IMG/VR virus record: IMGVR_UViG_3300009610_000095
Coordinates: 1 to 22,871 of that record
From: a virus
DNA: 22,871 bases
Strand: one strand, 5' to 3'
Shown here: positions 2,199 to 22,505 of the stretch, piece after piece
Numbering within the stretch: the stretch's first letter is position 1
How the letters are laid out: each line of letters begins with the position of its first letter
Notes under the pieces: generated by a model
Seen by the model: only the letters and a program-made list of their open reading frames with translations
What the model was told of the DNA's origin: nothing
Database searches by the model: none
Made by a program: the position numbers and the translations under genes

Positions 2199-3662
2199 AT
2201 GGCGAGACTAAACAACAAACTTATCACTAAGCAGATGCCTTGGCACGCTAATATGACAGAGTTAAACCACTTAGGGGCTGCTCTATTGGCTAAGCCTACA
2301 GTATTTGAGGGTAAGATGAACCAGTTATTTACCGCTACAAGATACTCTGACAATCCATTGTCAACACTTCTGGCAGGTAAAGCAGAGAAGACAATTACAA
2401 CAACACAGTGGGAATGGGATATGAAGGGAGCTTCTGTAAGACCACTGGTACTTGTTGAGAATGTTGAGCCTGATAGTAATACTACACCGGGAAAATGGAA
2501 GCAGAACTTCAAGATGAAACTTGATGAAGACTGGTACATTCCAGGTGATGTTATCCATCCAGGTACTTCTAACAAGAAGTTACAGGTTAGGATACAGAGT
2601 CAATCATTTAAGCATGGTAATGGGCATATCTATGAGGTTAGAGGTATGAGTGACGACCCTCAATGGTTTATGCCACCACAATACCTACAGCCCGGACAGC
2701 AATGGGCTAAGTTGTTCTCACAGTATGAAGAAGCTGCTGAACAATCAGGTAGCACACAGTATAGCCTTCCTATTAGCTTGGCTAGCAGGATGGGTAGGTA
2801 CAGAAAGAAATATCGTGTAACAGGTGATGCTGCACAGGAAGTTCTTGCTGTAAAGATACCCGATAATAAGGGTAGACTGCATGATAGCTGGATTAAGTAT
2901 GCAGAAGTGGAATACTGGGAACAATGGTATAGAGAGCTTGAAAGAGGCTACTGGTATAGCCGTAGTACAGATACTGTATTAGGTGCTAATGGTAGACCTA
3001 TTTACTCTGGTCCAGGGGTACAAGAGTACCTTGAGGATAGCCATGTACACTACTATTCTGTTCTTACAGCTAGACTTGTAGAGGAATATCTTATGGATAT
3101 TTTCTACTCTAGGGTGAAACCTGGGAAGGCTAGGCATATTAAGGGCTTTAGTGGGGAGTATGGAATGATACAGTTCCACAGAGCTATACAGGATTGGAAT
3201 GAGAAGAGGAAAGGGTTTATTCAGGTAGTTGACCAAGTATTTATCAATAAGACTACTTCTGCCTATCATACTAATGCTTTGGAAGCAGGCTTCCAATATG
3301 TGAGGTATCGTATGGCAAATGGAGCAGAACTTGAGTTAATTCATAATCCACTCTATGATGATAGGGAAATTAACTTTGCTATTGACCCTGTTACTGGGTA
3401 TCCAGAAGAGTCACAGAGGATAACATTCCTTGACTTTAGTGGACAGGGTACAGACTTTGGTTCCGGTAACATTGCTATTATGCACAAAGCTAATAGCTTG
3501 AAGTTAGCTTATGTGTGTGGTTTGCAGACACCTTATGGCCCAGCTAACAAGGGACAGCAGGCACACTCTGGTGACTACTATGAGATGCACGTTCAAAAGC
3601 AGTGTGGATTACACATTGAAGATATAAGTAAGTGTGGAGAGTTAATCTTAGCACGAGCTTAA
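2199..3662 (+). CDS. Major capsid protein, crAss-like phage type
   Basis: The 487-residue product matches the crAss-like major capsid protein in length, context and several stretches I recognise, such as GRYRKKYRVTGDA (about residue 200) and the Trp/Tyr-rich central region (EVEYWEQWYRELERGYW). The family has an HK97-type fold and forms the icosahedral shell. The C-terminal part (YGPANKGQQAHSGDYYEMH) is also typical. The start is set by an A-rich leader after the preceding stop. The gene is preceded by the scaffold-like gene and followed immediately by a strong intrinsic terminator, which fits high, separately controlled expression. Arg codons are largely AGA/AGG and CG dinucleotides are rare. 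No signs of truncation or cleavage signal were seen. This is the main anchor for assigning the window to a crAss-like phage. Confidence 0.8.
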   Translation: MARLNNKLITKQMPWHANMTELNHLGAALLAKPTVFEGKMNQLFTATRYSDNPLSTLLAGKAEKTITTTQWEWDMKGASVRPLVLVENVEPDSNTTPGKWKQNFKMKLDEDWYIPGDVIHPGTSNKKLQVRIQSQSFKHGNGHIYEVRGMSDDPQWFMPPQYLQPGQQWAKLFSQYEEAAEQSGSTQYSLPISLASRMGRYRKKYRVTGDAAQEVLAVKIPDNKGRLHDSWIKYAEVEYWEQWYRELERGYWYSRSTDTVLGANGRPIYSGPGVQEYLEDSHVHYYSVLTARLVEEYLMDIFYSRVKPGKARHIKGFSGEYGMIQFHRAIQDWNEKRKGFIQVVDQVFINKTTSAYHTNALEAGFQYVRYRMANGAELELIHNPLYDDREINFAIDPVTGYPEESQRITFLDFSGQGTDFGSGNIAIMHKANSLKLAYVCGLQTPYGPANKGQQAHSGDYYEMHVQKQCGLHIEDISKCGELILARA

Positions 3663-13829: not shown

Positions 13830-16670
13830 ATGTCATATAATCCAGAAGCACATACTAGAACAAATAAGGCTATAGGTATAGCACAAGCTAACCCAACAGA
13901 TGCTAGGAGTTACTGGAGTGACAATATTATATATAGGTTATATAATAGTACTACTGAAGTGCTATTACACTTAGATAAGCCAGAATATAGAGTAGGGCAT
14001 TTCTCTGTTTATGTGAAGGATGGTGCAACAGTTAAGGAGTATTGGTTTCCTAATGTGACAGTAGATAGCCCACTTAATGATGCTGACTTAGTGGAAAAGA
14101 GTGGTGGAATACCAACACTAGATGCAGTATTAGGTGCCGGTGATACAGCTATAGGTAAGAATATAATATTAAAGAATACATTTGGTACTCCAATTATACA
14201 GTTAGATACAGATGCGTGGTTGGGGATAGTGTTAAAGTCAAATGCTGTTGCAGACCCTAGTTTTCACTATGTAGACTATAGAGGAATATCTATAGGTAAT
14301 CAGTATGGTTATTCTTCAGCATTATGGGGGCCAATTACAGATATAGAACAGAACCAACAGCTTAGGATGCCTAACCTAAATGGTGGTATAAGAACAATGC
14401 CTGTATCAATTAATGGTACATTTGCAGATGGTAATGGTAATATTATTGTTCCTACTGGTACTCCTGTTCTTACAGCTACACAGGTAGGATTTGGTAGTGG
14501 TGCTAATCTACTTACAGGTTCACCTAATCTTACATGGACAGATAGTATTAAACAGCTAAAGGCTTCTGGCTCATTTGCGGGGGTATCAGGTACGGAAGGG
14601 CCGATACTACTTATTGAGGGAACGATTAATCAGGGGAGTACAGCAGGATATAACCTACTTAGAGTTGATGCTATCTTAAATACCATAGGGGCGGCAAGTT
14701 CAAATATTGTCGAATTTCAGGTAAACGGTATGAATAGATTTTCAATGAATAGTTTAGGGTCGTTTGTATTCAGCGGTGACCATAAACCTACCTTTTCGGG
14801 TTCAGGTGCTATATTAAACCTTATTCCTAAAGTAGTTATTGAGATACCTACCAAAACACACCTTTACGGGATAAATTCTAACGTAGAATTTACAACTACT
14901 GCCCCTGCTTTAACCAACTATTATGCCTTTCATGCAAGGGCTGACATGAATGCAAGTTTTACTGGAGTGATAACAGACTTTGTATTATATAATGCAGTTA
15001 ATGGTATAAAAGGTGGTTCGACTATTACCAACGCTTACGGCTTTAAGGTTTCTGGCATAAGTCAAGGCATAAATAACTTTGGTTTTCATAGCAATTTGGT
15101 AGCGGCGGCAAACAAATGGAATTTATATATGGAAGGTACGGCAGCTAACTATCTTAATGGTAGTACATTGATTGGTAGTACCACTGACACAGGAGAGAAG
15201 CTGCAAGTAACAGGTAATGCTAAGATAACAAGTGTAGCTACATATGCTACTGGTAGCTATAAGGTAATGGTACATAATGCAACAACCTTTAGAGTGGAAT
15301 CGGTAGATGCTTCTGCGTTACCTACCACACTTACAGCTACACAGATAGGCTATGGTAGTGCGAGTAACCTGCTTACTGGTTCACCTGACCTTACATGGGA
15401 TGATACTGCCAAAATGCTGACAGTAAATGGTGCATTAAGAACCTTTACTACATCAGACGCTGCTAACTTATGGGTTAGTAGTGGTTCAGCCGGGAATGGT
15501 AGTAATATAGCAGCATACCAGTTTGGTGGGGCTACCAATATAATGCTCAGGATTGGTATGCGTGGAAGTACATCAGCACCTAACATTATACCGAGTTCAA
15601 ACTATGGTTCACTGATAATAGGTACACAGGATACAACAGTGTACCCTGCTGGTGGTACTCATGGGATATTCTCACAGTTGGTAATAAAGCCTTTGACCAT
15701 ATCAGGTACAGGTTCTACAGTAACCAATTCAGCTACTCTTTATATAGCAGGAGCTGCAACAGGTGCTACTCAAAACTATTCCTTATGGATACCTGCAGGG
15801 TTGAACCGTATTGATAACAAGCTGACAGTTGGTGGTGTCCTTAATACAGATGCAACTAACCTTGGAAGAATAAATTCACATAGCGATGCAAGTATCTATG
15901 GTCTTTATGTGAAAGCTTATAATAGTACTTACGCTGCCCGGATAGAAGGCGATGTGTATAGTAATCGTAATACGGGTGTATATGTCAATAAATGCTCACC
16001 TGCTATCAGGATAGAGAACTCAACACTTGGTCTTTACTATTATACCAATGTTTACCCACTTGCTTTTGACCCAGCTATAGAGACCTCTTGGGCTTTAGAG
16101 TTGTATGTGACGCCACCTGCATATGGAGTAGATTATCCTACACTTGTTCATGCCGCTTTGAAGATAAGGGAATATACACCTAACTATGCAGTGAGCATAG
16201 GAACGATAGAAGGCTTGAATGTTGAGGTGCGATATCAGGGAATAGATACCATTACTGTTGGCGGTGCAAGAGTAAGCTTACGCAAAATGTATGGTATTAA
16301 CCTAGCAATGAGCACAACTAATGGAACAGGGGGAGCTACACCCGGTTATGTGACTGATGCTTATTTTATTTATATGCCTGCTGGAGCGCTCATGGACAAC
16401 CCTACCTACTATACTAATGTGTGGGGCATTTATTCAGCTACACCGAGAGCTATGCATTACCTGAATAGTAGAGTAGGTATTAAGATACTGCCTGTAGAGG
16501 GAGCTAGTGGTTATGACCTTCATGTTAATGGTACTAGTAAGTTTGTTAATACAGTAAATCTTGCTACTAGTACAGCACCTGCATCTCCTGTTAATGGTGA
16601 TATATGGTATGATGGTACAAACTTGAAGATGCAGTTAGGTGGTACAACTAAGACATTCACAATAATATAA
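13830..16670 (+). CDS. Large tail fibre protein, mosaic, probable host-range determinant
   Basis: A 946-residue fibre. Residues 1-95 form an AT-coded base domain (VLLHLDKPEYRVGHFSVYV). Residues about 94-205 share a module with the product of 17320 (VLGAGDTAIGKNIILKN ... MPVSINGTFADGNG). A 28-residue unit, LTATQ-G-GS--NLLTGSP-LTW, occurs at residues 214-241 and again at 501-528. Between and after these are fibre repeats of known style (NLYMEGTAANYLNGSTLIGS ... EKLQVTGNAKI; ATLYIAGAATGATQNYSLW). The end (TAPASPVNGDIWYDGTNLKM) is the usual Bacteroidota-phage fibre terminus. No intramolecular chaperone protease was seen. Base composition changes along the gene: about 14566-15125 and parts of 15300-16480 are CG-richer than both ends, implying domain swapping. 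It lies in the same frame as the gene before it. Confidence 0.7.
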   Translation: MSYNPEAHTRTNKAIGIAQANPTDARSYWSDNIIYRLYNSTTEVLLHLDKPEYRVGHFSVYVKDGATVKEYWFPNVTVDSPLNDADLVEKSGGIPTLDAVLGAGDTAIGKNIILKNTFGTPIIQLDTDAWLGIVLKSNAVADPSFHYVDYRGISIGNQYGYSSALWGPITDIEQNQQLRMPNLNGGIRTMPVSINGTFADGNGNIIVPTGTPVLTATQVGFGSGANLLTGSPNLTWTDSIKQLKASGSFAGVSGTEGPILLIEGTINQGSTAGYNLLRVDAILNTIGAASSNIVEFQVNGMNRFSMNSLGSFVFSGDHKPTFSGSGAILNLIPKVVIEIPTKTHLYGINSNVEFTTTAPALTNYYAFHARADMNASFTGVITDFVLYNAVNGIKGGSTITNAYGFKVSGISQGINNFGFHSNLVAAANKWNLYMEGTAANYLNGSTLIGSTTDTGEKLQVTGNAKITSVATYATGSYKVMVHNATTFRVESVDASALPTTLTATQIGYGSASNLLTGSPDLTWDDTAKMLTVNGALRTFTTSDAANLWVSSGSAGNGSNIAAYQFGGATNIMLRIGMRGSTSAPNIIPSSNYGSLIIGTQDTTVYPAGGTHGIFSQLVIKPLTISGTGSTVTNSATLYIAGAATGATQNYSLWIPAGLNRIDNKLTVGGVLNTDATNLGRINSHSDASIYGLYVKAYNSTYAARIEGDVYSNRNTGVYVNKCSPAIRIENSTLGLYYYTNVYPLAFDPAIETSWALELYVTPPAYGVDYPTLVHAALKIREYTPNYAVSIGTIEGLNVEVRYQGIDTITVGGARVSLRKMYGINLAMSTTNGTGGATPGYVTDAYFIYMPAGALMDNPTYYTNVWGIYSATPRAMHYLNSRVGIKILPVEGASGYDLHVNGTSKFVNTVNLATSTAPASPVNGDIWYDGTNLKMQLGGTTKTFTII
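14469..14552 (+). repeat. 84-bp fibre repeat unit, copy 1
   Basis: Codes for LTATQVGFGSGANLLTGSPN and the following LTW-containing residues of the 946-aa fibre. It is the same length as, and about three quarters identical to, copy 2 at 15330-15413. It lies at the junction where the composition of the gene changes (about 14566). Confidence 0.65.
15330..15413 (+). repeat. 84-bp fibre repeat unit, copy 2
   Basis: Codes for LTATQIGYGSASNLLTGSPD and the following LTW-containing residues. It corresponds codon for codon to copy 1 at 14469-14552, 861 bases upstream. It is again close to a composition change, so the pair brackets an exchangeable segment of the fibre. Confidence 0.65.
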
Positions 16671-16963: not shown

Positions 16964-17323
16964 ATGAACTGTTATCCACCTTTAGATCAACAGCTTAGGA
17001 TGGTAAACTGGGAGATATGTAGAGCAAAGGAAGTAATTGCTCAAGCTAATAATACTATCGCTTATGGTAAGTACCTACAGATGGAAGTAGGAGTACATCC
17101 TAATGTGGTAGTAGGTGGTACTACTATCTCACTAGCTGGGTACAACATTAAGTCTGATACTATAAGAGTAGCGTTAGATGGTACTGCACTAATGAGAGAT
17201 AGGAATGATAGGATAACTTATGCTACACCTATATATGGTACTACTAACATAGTGTTGCACTTTAACCAGTTCTTTAACTTAGGACAGATATACGTAATAG
17301 AATTTACATACTACAATACATGA
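16964..17323 (+). CDS. Small beta-rich tail-region protein, unknown function
   Basis: A 119-residue protein starting MNCYPPLDQQLRMVNWEICR. The frame is open further up to an ATG at 16925, but that start would overlap the previous gene by 35 bases; the ATG at 16964, five bases after the preceding stop, fits the packing of the cluster better. A short helix is followed by a Gly/Val-rich stretch (GVHPNVVVGGTTISLAGYN) and beta strands to the end (NIVLHFNQFFNLGQIYVIEF). It may be a fibre-attachment or tip protein by position. The stop overlaps the next start (ATGA). Confidence 0.5.
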   Translation: MNCYPPLDQQLRMVNWEICRAKEVIAQANNTIAYGKYLQMEVGVHPNVVVGGTTISLAGYNIKSDTIRVALDGTALMRDRNDRITYATPIYGTTNIVLHFNQFFNLGQIYVIEFTYYNT

Positions 17324-18117
17324 AAAAGCTCCTTAGCGTCTTAGCCTTCTTTTTGAAGCTCTTCATAATAGGTGAAGTACTAGCTCAGTCTCCAGTAAAC
17401 TTTCCGGTAGTCACTAGTAATGGGTACTATAAGTATGGGTTTGTGGGAACAGATAGTGGATTTATATTTAAAGAAAGAGATACCTTTAGGACCAAATATC
17501 CTACTCTGATTAAGCACATAAATCATAGGTTCTACTATACTAATGGACTTGATAGCTCTTGGCATGAGCTTATAGGTAGTGGTATTGGTAGTGGTGGAGA
17601 TGACTGTGCTATACCATTGGATGAGGTATTAGCGGCAGGTAATACAGCTACAGGTAAGGATATAATATTAAAGAATGGAAGTGGTAAGTCAATCATAGTA
17701 GCCAATGCTACTTATGAACAACTAAATGTATATTCCAGTGATGACTATTCAGCGACATTAAGTAGCTATGAGTTGATGTTTGGAAATAATACAGGTGGCA
17801 TTATTAGTTTGAAGATGCCAGTCACTATAAATAATAGTGCTACACTTAGGCTACCAAGTTTACCTAGTTTTGCTACACGGACAATACCTATATCAGTCAA
17901 TGGACTATTTGCTGATGCTAATGGTGCTATAACAGGTGCTACTTTAGTATCTTCCCAAGGAGGTCTTTTACTACCTAAGATGACTGCTATACAGGCAGAA
18001 GCTATAGTCTCTCCAGAAGAAGGACTTATGATATATATTACAGGTGGTACTGGAACTACTATAATATCTAAAGGATGGTGGGGATTTGATGGTACTACAT
18101 GGGTAAAACTTAATTAA
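17320..18117 (+). CDS. Fibre-like protein with an N-terminal signal peptide
   Basis: A 265-residue protein. Residues 1-23 (MKKLLSVLAFFLKLFIIGEVLA) form a textbook Sec signal peptide, with likely cleavage before Gln-Ser. Residues about 98-203 share a module with the 946-aa fibre (VLAAGNTATGKDIILKNGSG ... IPISVNGLFADANG), evident also at DNA level (17611-17676 against 14110-14177). The C-terminus (GGLLLPKMTAIQAEAIVSPE ... GWWGFDGTTWVKLN) is the trimer-type end common to Bacteroidota phage fibres and surface proteins. A virion protein assembled in the cytoplasm should not need export. Either the protein goes to the cell envelope, for example to block superinfection or release polysaccharide, or the hydrophobic N-terminus serves as a membrane or tail anchor. 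Confidence 0.55.
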   Translation: MKKLLSVLAFFLKLFIIGEVLAQSPVNFPVVTSNGYYKYGFVGTDSGFIFKERDTFRTKYPTLIKHINHRFYYTNGLDSSWHELIGSGIGSGGDDCAIPLDEVLAAGNTATGKDIILKNGSGKSIIVANATYEQLNVYSSDDYSATLSSYELMFGNNTGGIISLKMPVTINNSATLRLPSLPSFATRTIPISVNGLFADANGAITGATLVSSQGGLLLPKMTAIQAEAIVSPEEGLMIYITGGTGTTIISKGWWGFDGTTWVKLN

Positions 18118-18118
18118 C

Positions 18119-19825
18119 ATGAGGATTATTATTCTACTTCTGCTTTGTTATAGTAGTTATAGTCAGGTAGGTACTTATGGATGGACTGGTGATATAGAAA
18201 TTTCACAGCGTGATTTAACAGATAATATACACCAATATAAGGTACTAGGCTATAAGGGAGTTAAATTCATATCTAGATGGACAGATGACCAACCTACTCT
18301 AGCAGATGAATCTCATACTCTGTTATTAACTAACTTGAAGATAATAACTGACTCTGGGCTTGAGGTTGTACTTCATACTTGGAAAGGGGACTATGCCCCT
18401 ATAGTATCTCCTAATAACTGGTTAGTAGGAGCAGGAGTACCTATATTCTTTACTACAGGTGGAAGCAAAGCTGGACCTTGGCCTGACTACTATGATGCAG
18501 ACTATATCTTCTACTCTGACAGATATGATAGAACTCTAGCTGATAGTTTGAAAGCTTATATAATTAGGTATCCTACTTTCGCTAGTAGGTTTAAAGGATG
18601 GTTTAGTAGTCATGGTAGTACAGGAGATGAAGGGCCAATTAAAGGAGTTGCTCCACCACCTTATGATGATATAGATAATGATGCTACATGGTTTCTATAT
18701 GTACAGGATAGACTGGACTTGACTTTTGCTAGGCTAGCTGGAGTTAGACCTTTAGCTCTTAATCCAGGTAATGATGCAGAGAATCTTCTAGTGTATCACA
18801 CTAGATACCCAGGAGTGATATTCAAGCATGGTGATGCTTCACATGGTTATCCTGTTAATGGAGAGACTTATAGTATTAACTGGCTACCTAGTAACTACTT
18901 TGGAGAGTTTGATATACCAGTAAAGAATAGTCCTTACCCTGCTGACCAGTTTCAATGTATAAGAAGCTTCTTATCTTTGAAGAGGGCTAATGGACAGTTC
19001 TTTGATACTTGGGCATATCTTAGTCATACACCTTATATGGCAGCCTTTCTTAATAAGTACTCTAATCAGTTTAATCCTGTAACTGCTAATAAGGGATTTG
19101 TGGCACTTGCAGAGAAGGTTAACTTCTTAGATAGTGTGAACTATCCTGAATCCACATGGGGACAAGTCTTTACTGATGATGCTACTTATTGGGGGCAAAT
19201 AGCCTTTGTTAATGGTAGTGCTGATGATACCTTTCAGAAGCAAATTAGATATGTGAATGTAGCTTATAATAATAGAAACTTATCTAGGGTAGCTGCATTT
19301 CAGGCAGCAGGGTATAAGTTATTACCTATACCTATAGTTAGTGAAGACCAGTTGAACTACGATAATGATATATGCTGGTACTGTGTTCAGAACTATAGTT
19401 TGAATATGACACAGATGTTAGTGTTTGAGACTTCTACTGGAGCATTAAGGATAGATGGTGGTAGCCTATTTGGAAGGAATGCTAGGATACCTAAGCTGTA
19501 TGATGGGAAGACAGCATTATACTTTGATATTGATGATAACCTTATAGTTACTCCTGGGAGTGATGTTATACAAGTTAAGGTAACTTATAAGGATAGTGGT
19601 TATGCAGAGTGGGGAATAGGGCAAGCATCTAGGTGTGGTACTACTAATTATACAGTAATTAATACTAATACTAACCTATGGAATACTGTAACCTTTAACC
19701 TAGGTAGTTTTAGGAAGGGTAACAAGATGCCTAGGGTGGTAGCTGCTGATTTGGTTATAGAGGTATTTAGTGGTGGTGCTTTCCCAATAGATATGGTGGA
19801 AGTTGAAAACCTATCTAAGCCCTAA
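18119..19825 (+). CDS. Probable secreted TIM-barrel glycoside hydrolase with C-terminal beta domain
   Basis: A 568-residue protein starting with a short hydrophobic signal peptide (MRIIILLLLCYSSYSQ). Residues 18-340 follow the strand order of clan-A-like barrels: GVKFISRW (48-54), LEVVLHTWKGD (81-91), a strand ending in SSHGSTGDEGP (163-173), PLALNP (211-216), VIFKHGD (233-239), then NYFGEFD (259-265). Glu171 and Glu263 are candidates for the acid/base and nucleophile, by analogy with beta-galactosidase or related families. Residues about 430-568 form a beta-sandwich typical of carbohydrate-binding domains (FDIDDNLIVTPGSDVIQVKV). It may degrade capsule or surface glycan. It starts one base after the previous stop. 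The family is not identified, and the fold assignment is from pattern only. Confidence 0.5.
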   Translation: MRIIILLLLCYSSYSQVGTYGWTGDIEISQRDLTDNIHQYKVLGYKGVKFISRWTDDQPTLADESHTLLLTNLKIITDSGLEVVLHTWKGDYAPIVSPNNWLVGAGVPIFFTTGGSKAGPWPDYYDADYIFYSDRYDRTLADSLKAYIIRYPTFASRFKGWFSSHGSTGDEGPIKGVAPPPYDDIDNDATWFLYVQDRLDLTFARLAGVRPLALNPGNDAENLLVYHTRYPGVIFKHGDASHGYPVNGETYSINWLPSNYFGEFDIPVKNSPYPADQFQCIRSFLSLKRANGQFFDTWAYLSHTPYMAAFLNKYSNQFNPVTANKGFVALAEKVNFLDSVNYPESTWGQVFTDDATYWGQIAFVNGSADDTFQKQIRYVNVAYNNRNLSRVAAFQAAGYKLLPIPIVSEDQLNYDNDICWYCVQNYSLNMTQMLVFETSTGALRIDGGSLFGRNARIPKLYDGKTALYFDIDDNLIVTPGSDVIQVKVTYKDSGYAEWGIGQASRCGTTNYTVINTNTNLWNTVTFNLGSFRKGNKMPRVVAADLVIEVFSGGAFPIDMVEVENLSKP

Positions 19826-19900: not shown

Positions 19901-21013
19901 ATGAAAGTGAGAACCTACAGAGTACACCCATTTGTTGAGGTAAAAATAGTAGAGCAGGATTGCTCTGGAGATGTAACTGCTAAACCACCACTTGCAGGGT
20001 TATGTATAAGGCAAGATGAATGGTTTAACAGTGAGAATCCTAATATTGAATTTCTTACTAACGTAGATAATGTAGTGATAAGGCAATACATGAAAGATGT
20101 GTGGCCAGATGAAAATAGGTTTAACTTTAGTGTACTGAATGAGTGGAGAGAATGGAGAGAAGCAATGAAGTTAAGAGGTCTGGATATACACTTCAAACTA
20201 AGGCTTATATCAGGAGTGTTTGCGCCTAACTGGATGATGACTCAATGTGGGAAGTTTCCACTAGAAAAGAGTGGCTTTGAAACTACACCTGGATTTGAGG
20301 ATGCTAGTGACTATTGTGTTAAGTTCTGGACTGATGAATATATGACCTTGTGGGAAAGGTTGATGCAGGAGTTATCTACTCAATTTGATGATGCAGAGTT
20401 TCTAAGTGAAGTAATCATGACAGCTTCAGGGCCAGGTACAGGAGAACCTATGATCTTTGGAATAGGTAATGATGGAGATGACCTAGTAAGACTAAACCAA
20501 TATATAAGTGCTGGTTTAACAAGTGAGAACTTGGAAGCTTGCTTATATAGAAGCATAGATAGTATGGCTGCTTTTCAAAGAACTAATATAGGTATGGCAC
20601 TTACTCAGTTTGAACATATAACTATTCCATTCTTCAAAGAGATAGAGACCAGTAAAGAGATAGGGGACTATATGGCTAATAGGTATGGGAGTAGGTGTAT
20701 ATTAGGAAATAATGGGTTAAGGACAGATCATGGTCCAAATGGACCTGCTTGGACTGCTCCTCATGGAGATATGTGGAAGTTACAGATGTTCTATATTAAG
20801 ATGGCAATAAAGTATGGTAGTAGGATATATAATCAGACAGCCTCTGTTAATAATATGGGTGGTTGGGAAAATATGGTTGAGGTTCTAGATAGGGGACTGA
20901 CATTTCAGGACTGCTTGCTAGAACTACCAAATCAGGAAGCAGATATAAAGAAACATCTTACACCACAACAGCTTAGTTACTATAGTAGAGAATATAAAGC
21001 TAATGTTGTATGA
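19901..21013 (+). CDS. Putative TIM-barrel glycoside hydrolase-like protein, no signal peptide
   Basis: A 370-residue protein with barrel-like features: DIHFKLRLISGVFAPNWM (95-112), a strand ending in TASGPGTGEP (174-183) and a later strand with ALTQFEHI (233-240). Glu182 in 'SGPGTGEP' parallels 'STGDEGP' in the protein of the preceding gene, so both may share the site of a catalytic acid. An N-terminal 30-residue extension (VRTYRVHPFVEVKIVEQD) could be a docking strand to the virion. Trp/Met/Gly-rich surfaces (MGGWENMVEV) suggest a sugar-binding groove. Unlike its neighbour it lacks a signal peptide, so it may be virion-bound. It starts after a 75-base gap and its stop overlaps the nuclease start (ATGA). 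Confidence 0.45.
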   Translation: MKVRTYRVHPFVEVKIVEQDCSGDVTAKPPLAGLCIRQDEWFNSENPNIEFLTNVDNVVIRQYMKDVWPDENRFNFSVLNEWREWREAMKLRGLDIHFKLRLISGVFAPNWMMTQCGKFPLEKSGFETTPGFEDASDYCVKFWTDEYMTLWERLMQELSTQFDDAEFLSEVIMTASGPGTGEPMIFGIGNDGDDLVRLNQYISAGLTSENLEACLYRSIDSMAAFQRTNIGMALTQFEHITIPFFKEIETSKEIGDYMANRYGSRCILGNNGLRTDHGPNGPAWTAPHGDMWKLQMFYIKMAIKYGSRIYNQTASVNNMGGWENMVEVLDRGLTFQDCLLELPNQEADIKKHLTPQQLSYYSREYKANVV

Positions 21014-21750
21014 TTAATACAAAGCAAATAGGGACTAATGCAAAGAAGATGTTCTCACCACTTAAGTTTGAGGCAAAGAGACACCTCTACTATATCATGC
21101 ACAGCAATGGATATATGGAGTATCTACCTTCTGTATCTAGTAAGGTAGAGAGCTATGTACCACCATTTGATATGAATAAGTGGCTACCACTATGTGCTAG
21201 GAAGGAAGGTATGAGTGAAGCTGAACTAGCTCATAAATGGCAGACTATAAATAAGTTAGCCTGTGACTTAGGTACAGAGACACATAAATGGCTAGAGAAG
21301 TGGGATGGGTTTAAGACTCCTAATACGCCACAAAAGGAAGCAGGAGTATTATTCTTGAAGTCAATTCAGAATAGATATACTATTATAGCTAAAGAGTTAA
21401 GAATGTATCACAGGAAGTACAAGTATGCGGGGACTTGTGACTTACTCCTGTATGATAGATATAGTGATAGCCTAGTACTTGCGGACTATAAGACAAATGG
21501 AGACTTATTCAAGACCTTTGATATGATGAATGCTCCTTTCGGTTATCTGCAATCTCACCCATATAATCATTACCAGATACAGTTATCCCTATATAACATC
21601 CTTCTGGAACAACTAGGCTATCCTGTTTCTAATAGGTTGATAGTACACCTAGACTCATTAGGACAGTATAGGACTTATGATGCCTATTACTTTAGGAATG
21701 AGCTTGTAGGTGAATTAGATAGAAAACTTAAAACCAAACTGGCAGCATGA
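21010..21750 (+). CDS. PD-(D/E)XK nuclease of the RecB/Cas4 type
   Basis: A 246-residue protein with the ordered motifs of this nuclease superfamily: GTETHKWLE (G88, H92), a Glu at 129 in KELRMY, the metal-binding Asp144 in GTCDLLL, the D-x-K pair Asp159/Lys161 in ADYKTN, and the downstream Q-x3-Y (Gln191, Tyr195) in QIQLSLY. This full set (H, E, D, D-x-K, Q-x3-Y) supports an active enzyme. RecB-family nucleases act in recombination or DNA end processing. The position inside the structural block suggests a role in genome packaging, head completion or degradation of host or competing DNA. No Fe-S cysteines of Cas4 type are seen. Overlaps on both sides are ATGA. Confidence 0.75.
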   Translation: MINTKQIGTNAKKMFSPLKFEAKRHLYYIMHSNGYMEYLPSVSSKVESYVPPFDMNKWLPLCARKEGMSEAELAHKWQTINKLACDLGTETHKWLEKWDGFKTPNTPQKEAGVLFLKSIQNRYTIIAKELRMYHRKYKYAGTCDLLLYDRYSDSLVLADYKTNGDLFKTFDMMNAPFGYLQSHPYNHYQIQLSLYNILLEQLGYPVSNRLIVHLDSLGQYRTYDAYYFRNELVGELDRKLKTKLAA

Positions 21751-22505
21751 TCTTAATAGAAGAAGCCATACAAACAATACAATCTATTTATAGTAAGGGA
21801 TTGCAGAGTAAAGATACTAGGCTGGTTAGCAGGCATATATATAGTGCTGCTATATCAGCTAGAGCTACACTTATCAGGCAGAGAAGTAACAATGGACAAG
21901 CTATAAATAGTGAGTGCTATCAGGTATTAACTTGCGTAGAGATGGAACAAGCAAGTGCTACTGAATGTAACCTTATACCTGCTTCAAGTTCTGTAGTATT
22001 GCGGAGCAAGCTCCGACTTCCTGCATTTATTACAGACTTGAGCAGGGATTTAATTAGAGACATATATGCAGCAGATAGTGGTAGTGGCTTTGATATAATT
22101 GAATATGAGGCTAGTAAGTATAGGAAAGGTAATAAGTACACTTCTAATAAGCCTGTAGTCTTCTTGAGAGATGGGAGATTATATATTACTGTACTTACTC
22201 AACCTACTACTCTTGTAGTAGATGGGCTATTCCAAGACCCATTGGAAGTACACGAGTTTAGAGAGAAGACTGATTGTGCTAGTTGTAAGTGTATGAGTGC
22301 CTATGAGGTAGATTTTGCCTTTGATAGAGAGCAAATGAAAGCTCTAGGTCAGCTAGCTATGCAAGAACTAGTAATACTATTTACTCAAATGAAAGAAGAT
22401 AAGGTTAATAATGCTAGTGATGATATTACCATATCTGGTAATATGGTTCATCAGCCTCAACAATATCAGCAACAACAAAGAGAACAAGATGATAGACAAG
22501 CTTAA
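21747..22505 (+). CDS. Probable head-to-tail connector (neck ring) protein
   Basis: A 252-residue protein built like phage adaptor/ring proteins: helical N-terminus (residues 1-45), beta-rich region with a 'LPAFITDLSRDLIRDIY' helix (91-107), a strand pair PVVFLRDGRLYITVL (136-150), and TTLVVDGLFQDPLEVHEF (154-171), which is the 'v-G-lf-dP-ev' signature common in such proteins. A closing helix (QMKALGQLAMQEL) follows. Residues 177-182 (CASCKC) hold three cysteines. The tail is Gln-rich (QQYQQQQREQDD) and disordered. The start overlaps the nuclease stop (ATGA) and the end overlaps the next gene by 17 bases. Together with 4548-5270 it would give two neck components. Confidence 0.5.
   Translation: MILIEEAIQTIQSIYSKGLQSKDTRLVSRHIYSAAISARATLIRQRSNNGQAINSECYQVLTCVEMEQASATECNLIPASSSVVLRSKLRLPAFITDLSRDLIRDIYAADSGSGFDIIEYEASKYRKGNKYTSNKPVVFLRDGRLYITVLTQPTTLVVDGLFQDPLEVHEFREKTDCASCKCMSAYEVDFAFDREQMKALGQLAMQELVILFTQMKEDKVNNASDDITISGNMVHQPQQYQQQQREQDDRQA
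22002..22015 (+). repeat. GC-rich 5-bp inverted repeat inside a coding region
   Basis: CGGAG (22002-22006) and CTCCG (22011-22015) frame CAAG. It encodes Arg-Ser-Lys-Leu-Arg with the Arg codons CGG and CGA, both scarce in this CG-poor phage. The hairpin is small but stands out against the local AT-rich sequence. Confidence 0.4.

Follow-up and report, generated by a model that had tools for sequence, protein, structure and literature searches.

Fibres of tailed phages are taught as cytoplasmic products. What, then, are two adjacent tail-region genes of a crAss-like phage doing with export signals at their starts? The original prediction for this locus was that the two products, one fibre-like and one hydrolase-like, stay out of the virion and act at the surface of the infected cell. 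We examined the signals, the proteins that carry them, and comparable genes in related and in cultured phages.

Phage Identity and Gene Landmarks

The window (the whole stretch analyzed, 22,871 nucleotides of IMG/VR record IMGVR_UViG_3300009610_000095) is a fragment of a crAss-like phage and its sequence recurs unchanged within a 101,130-base IMG/VR contig, IMGVR_UViG_3300027533_000014 (hereafter G001). A CrAss ring protein, a crAss-like capsid protein, and the gene order place it among Crassvirales-like phages. The signal-bearing pair has a tail fibre gene (13830-16670) on one side and, on the other, the genes for the exonuclease and the ring protein (21010-22505), and the landmarks of the window are as follows.

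2199..3662, + strand: major capsid protein, 65% identical to that of Flavobacterium phage FpV4 over 100% of the query and more weakly similar to those of crAss phages, placing the phage near Flavobacterium phages FpV4/Fpv1
13830..16670, + strand: ORF, 946-aa unsignalled tail fibre-like protein that shares a module with the 265-aa protein
14109-14444: shared module in the 946-aa fibre (residues 94-205), matching the 265-aa protein
17320..18117, + strand: ORF, 265-aa signal-bearing fibre-like protein with a Q-rule signal peptide; no database family
17320..17385, + strand: MKKLLSVLAFFLKLFIIGEVLA, the signal peptide predicted for the 265-aa protein, with the cut before Gln23
17611..17931, + strand: residues 98-204 of the 265-aa protein, a fibre module with a paralogous counterpart in the 946-aa fibre
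18119..19825, + strand: ORF, signal-bearing protein of 568 aa that resembles a glycosidase by eye only and matched nothing in the databases
18119..18163, + strand: MRIIILLLLCYSSYS, the signal peptide predicted for the 568-aa protein, with the cut before Gln16
21010..21750, + strand: PD-(D/E)XK exonuclease-like gene, border of the interval (phrog_298, E 3.8e-27)
21747..22505, + strand: crAss-like tail ring protein 2, anchor of the locus comparison (PF25702 CrAss_Ring_2, E 1.9e-30)

The next gene after the pair (19901-21013) encodes a 370-aa protein without a signal. A relative with 54% identity to it is encoded on an unrelated phage contig (L100:3791-4900), between terminase-looking and portal-looking genes. 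No homology was found between the 568-aa and 370-aa proteins.

Export Signals on the Two Proteins

Both genes do start with Sec/signal-peptidase-I signals, and each product has the features of a Q-rule substrate, namely a basic n-region, a hydrophobic h-region, a small residue at -1, and Gln at +1 (EVLA/QSPVN and SSYS/QVGTYG, the slash marking predicted cleavage). It is this Gln, the Bacteroidetes “Q-rule,” that bears out the description of the signals as Bacteroidota-style; in Porphyromonas gingivalis more than 60% of signal-peptidase-I substrates carry Gln at +1 (PMC5837995). The N-termini read MKKLLSVLAFFLKLFIIGEVLA/QSPVNF for the 265-aa protein and MRIIILLLLCYSSYS/QVGTYG for the 568-aa protein, and the predicted pyroglutamate N-terminal peptides of the mature pair are pyroQ-SPVNFPVVTSNGYYK and pyroQ-VGTYGWTGDIEISQR. 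Scored with our own rule-based predictor rather than SignalP, both proteins were positive and far above shuffles, the observed score being reached by 5 (265 aa) and 0 (568 aa) of 20,000 whole-protein shuffles.

Chance hydrophobic starts or wrong start codons might be suspected from the 265-aa protein, whose signal is the weaker of the two, its hydrophobic core being interrupted by a Lys and its cleavage site preceded by a Glu. Against this stand the shuffle tests and the tight coupling of both starts to upstream stops, start 17320 overlapping the upstream stop (ATGA) and start 18119 lying 1 nt past the preceding one. We consider this explanation barely credible and rejected it on the shuffles and the gene spacing.

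The only further Q-rule start found in G001 belongs to an 81-aa ORF (L006:8455-8700), which lies outside the tail region and has a weak match to phrog_16207.

A T9SS sorting domain (PF18962/TIGR04183) was matched neither in G001 as a whole nor in either window protein, and no proper or convincing lipobox was seen on the pair by eye; T9SS and lipoprotein routing of the pair were rejected on these grounds. Sec export alone would therefore leave both proteins in the periplasm until lysis, so that the case for action at the infected-cell surface is weak for this pair.

Nature of the 265-aa and 568-aa Proteins

The 265-aa protein earns the term fibre-like through its sequence relation to the phage’s own 946-aa fibre. 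Residues 98-204 align with residues 94-205 of the latter at 42% identity (113 columns, E 5e-13), and the shared stretch retains 79% DNA identity over 78 bp. The C-terminus, GLLLPKMTAIQAEAIVSPEEGLMIY followed by GWWGFDGTTWVKLN, resembles a fibre end as judged by eye only.

The 568-aa protein shows no such relation to a phage fibre, and its earlier designation as hydrolase-like did not find support, with no match in Pfam, PHROG, NCBIfam, PDB, phages, or plasmids, and no glycoside hydrolase family profile among them. A single-sequence fold prediction had a pLDDT of 29 and was discarded. Judged by eye, the protein could be a TIM-barrel glycosidase with a beta-sandwich behind it, which is a lead and not a result. 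Its role may be glycan-directed. For both proteins, searches of viral and genome contigs returned only the identical contig; phage relatives were found for neither, nor were plasmid relatives of the 568-aa protein, the one used in that search.

Signal-Bearing Genes in Related crAss-Like Loci

Searches with the ring protein brought together about 50 crAss-like loci, and positions were counted over the 19 non-redundant ones with 10 kb upstream of the ring gene. At least one Q-rule gene was present upstream of the ring gene in 6 of these 19 loci and downstream in 0 of 19. Among 548 non-redundant genes from the window phage and the related loci, 17 have Q-rule starts, against a shuffle mean of 0.88 and a maximum of 3 in 50 shuffles of the gene set.

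Some of these signals are carried by proteins with clear phage fibre domains. A signal-bearing 841-aa protein (L021) has parts that match tail fibres of Vibrio and actinobacterial phages, and a signal-bearing 1029-aa protein (L040) ends in a C-terminal 48-residue module common in tail proteins of Klebsiella and Acinetobacter phages. On the 100.7-kb contig that holds L021 (G005), seven consecutive genes are signal-bearing (327, 624, 82, 841, 643, 121, and 91 aa) and make up the entire fibre interval (16676-24885; L021, L077-L078). A PKD-like lipoprotein is included in this run.

T9SS cargo does occur among the relatives. A 774-aa protein (L053:3154-5478) has a Q-rule signal and ends in a T9SS type A sorting domain that scores over the cut-offs of both Pfam and NCBIfam, and a second T9SS protein (L046:1-2298) likewise has a sorting domain over the cut-off.

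Thioredoxin-like signal-bearing proteins, possibly serving periplasmic folding, are found in the tail interval of three crAss-like contigs (L053:2803-3153, L048:24-377, and L063:277-630), and a signal-bearing 345-aa protein in such an interval (L053:384-1421) resembles an outer-membrane beta-barrel. In another locus (L051:521-1235) the ring-protein match is broken by a frameshift, the direct translation having 13 stops.

The main rival to the reading that we prefer, in which the fibre-like protein is exported and later ends up with the particles, is the original prediction. It holds that the pair is secreted and never becomes part of the virion, stripping or masking glycans and so aiding release, blocking re-adsorption, or excluding other phages. 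The export signals are real, T9SS cargo domains or outer-membrane and thioredoxin-like exported proteins share the interval in some relatives, and phage-encoded T9SS enzymes have been proposed to act in this way in Cryophage (PMC7468147). The window pair, lacking T9SS and lipoprotein signals, would have no route to the cell surface before lysis. Weighing this with the virion data described below, we regard secretion without virion entry as rather unlikely, although masking or superinfection exclusion by the pair is possible.

Virion-Noted Cassettes of Cultured Cellulophaga Phages

Equivalent proteins occur in cultured Cellulophaga phages, which belong to other families than the window phage and for which virion detection consists of the submitters’ GenBank notes. 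The note “structural protein, experimental MS/MS proteomics” is attached to phi10:1 gp091-094, phi19:1 gp101-104, and phi18:3 gp085-087. A Q-rule signal is present on phi10:1 gp091-094, phi19:1 gp101-103, and phi18:3 gp085-087, and phi19:1 gp104 has a signal-like start but Lys at +1. Predicted mature N-termini include pyroQ-TTDVVK for phi10:1 gp091 and pyroQ-TVEGTVGSDGSLIPYNVSGGLDETAVDTK for gp094. None of the other MS-noted proteins checked in these three phages has a Q-rule signal, nor has any of those checked in phi4:1, phi14:2, and phi46:1. MS-noted proteins are enriched in signal-bearing genes (Fisher p 0.002 for phi10:1 and 0.02 for phi18:3). With signal-bearing fibre-module proteins noted in the virions of three cultured phages, absence from virions is not the best reading, and secretion without virion entry loses ground accordingly; caution is due in that secreted proteins can co-purify with particles.

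Virion detection could be reconciled with classical cytoplasmic assembly if the hydrophobic N-terminus were neither cleaved nor exported and instead served as an assembly anchor on cytoplasmically built virions. An anchor has no need for Gln at +1, the hallmark of Bacteroidota signal peptidase I (PMC5837995), yet this residue recurs across unrelated N-termini, which makes the anchor improbable.

In the Cellulophaga cassette proteins, the signal and the domain that follows it are constant and the C-terminus is variable. In one cassette family, pairwise codon differences within the signal peptide number 74 synonymous and 0 non-synonymous, and this one peptide is under purifying selection. The same finding bears on the idea that the genes were captured from secreted host proteins and that the signal is a relic without function in the phage. 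Hypervariability of the interval and swapping of its domains would suit such an origin, but the strict conservation of that signal peptide and the retention of signals on proteins with clear phage fibre domains (L021 and L040) speak against it, and we hold it to be very improbable.

The same domains occur in unsignalled and exported forms. Residues 117-774 of phi10:1 gp093 align at 44-50% identity with MS-noted proteins of phi14:2 and phi4:1 that have no signal, and in phi46:3 gp083 a 16-residue signal-containing start is fused directly to a domain that shares 87% identity with the C-terminal part of phi4:1 gp048. The signal-bearing forms have the N-terminal regions of the unsignalled versions replaced, which is a point against the preferred reading. 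In the window, such a pairing is found inside one genome, between the 265-aa and 946-aa proteins.

Phages phi19:1 (Assiduviridae) and phi19:3 (Pachyviridae) were grown on one host strain and have in common a run of three cassette proteins that are 98-99% identical (KC821607 47016-53153 and KC821608 33899-40126, respectively); beyond these, the best matches between the fetched regions of the two families include only a few small hypothetical proteins. This sharing fits host-range parts and is awkward if docking is virion-specific. The cassette may bring an adaptor with it; otherwise its proteins would act unattached to virions and co-purify with them. The movement of a cassette between unrelated virion types on one host is a point in favor of secretion without virion entry.

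Periplasmic O-glycosylation was considered as a reason for export and rejected, the D[ST][AILVMT] motif numbering 68 in the signal-bearing fibres as a whole against an expected 64.0, which is no enrichment.

A Proposed Route from Export to Particle

Export is probably real and under selection, and we infer that it operates in the window phage itself, in which export with signal cleavage is predicted as very likely from the Q-rule, the recurrence of such signals, and the selection on them. What stands of the original prediction is that the phage has real signals of the Bacteroidota style, probably in use, and that the pair belongs to a class in which fibre domains and glycan-active ones (beta-helix “pectate lyase”) predominate; staying out of the virion did not find support, and action at the infected-cell surface is a weak case for this pair.

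Under the preferred reading, the pair would belong to the variable cassette of fibre genes in a crAss-like phage that infects Bacteroidota, namely to a version made as Sec precursors. The host would export these precursors, signal peptidase I would cut before the Gln, the Gln would probably cyclize to pyroglutamate, and the proteins would fold in the periplasm. When lysis breaks the inner membrane and wall, the exported proteins would come into contact with the new particles, and the fibre-like member, at least, would most likely join or travel with them as an adsorption or depolymerase part, the attachment itself being presumed. Behind this reading stand the signals, their recurrence and position, the selection on one peptide, the occurrence of domains with and without signal, and the MS/MS notes for cultured relatives. 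We give this fate of the fibre-like protein about an even chance. Receptor binding need not fall to the 265-aa protein, since this phage encodes an unsignalled fibre as well.

A broader proposal, which we put forward tentatively, is that several families of Bacteroidota phages may use two-compartment assembly, the capsid and tail being built in the cytoplasm and the receptor-binding fibres and depolymerases being Sec-exported, matured in the periplasm, and joined to the particle only at lysis. Exported fibres need not dock in the cytoplasm, which would explain why cassettes are mobile between unrelated virion types that share a host.

If true, there would be a recurrent class of fibres and depolymerases with selected, host-specific export signals, already recorded in the virions of cultured phages. 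Such a class would alter views on how the phages of a phylum dominant in gut and ocean build and exchange their receptor-binding parts. For annotation, the warning is that signal-bearing phage proteins should not be labeled “secreted, non-virion” by default.

Comparison with Known Systems

Earlier reports describe Q-rule proteins of phages (PMC10367356) as well as T9SS cargo that phages encode (PMC7468147, PMC6949934); in the open-licence literature we found no paper linking Q-rule signals to virion tail fibres. Phages of P. gingivalis encode proteins without assigned function for which the Q-rule is predicted to hold (PMC10367356), but these phages are prophages inserting at tRNA-Pro, and their Q-rule proteins are not described as tail fibres or virion proteins. 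Cryophage (PMC7468147) and the crAss-BACON phages (PMC6949934) resemble the window phage in having variable genes for exported, sometimes glycan-active proteins, the T9SS cargo gene of the latter lying upstream of the head genes (PMC6949934). Their cargo carries a C-terminal T9SS sorting domain, unlike the window pair, although the relatives L053 and L046 have one.

Unsignalled virion fibres, namely phi4:1 gp051/gp052 and phi14:2 g086, have the same beta-helix domains as signal-bearing proteins and are MS/MS-noted as structural, but differ in having another N-terminus and no signal. Signal-bearing fibre cassettes are found in Cellulophaga phages phi10:1, phi19:1, phi18:3, phi19:3, phi46:3, phi13:2, Nekkels, and Ingeline. 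Like the window pair, these consist of consecutive genes located in the structural region, here for fibre and beta-helix proteins, all of which start with a Q-rule signal and have domains that occur elsewhere without one. They belong to other virus families and have no sequence homology to the window pair, and the entire fibre module is signalled in these cassettes, whereas in the window two genes are.
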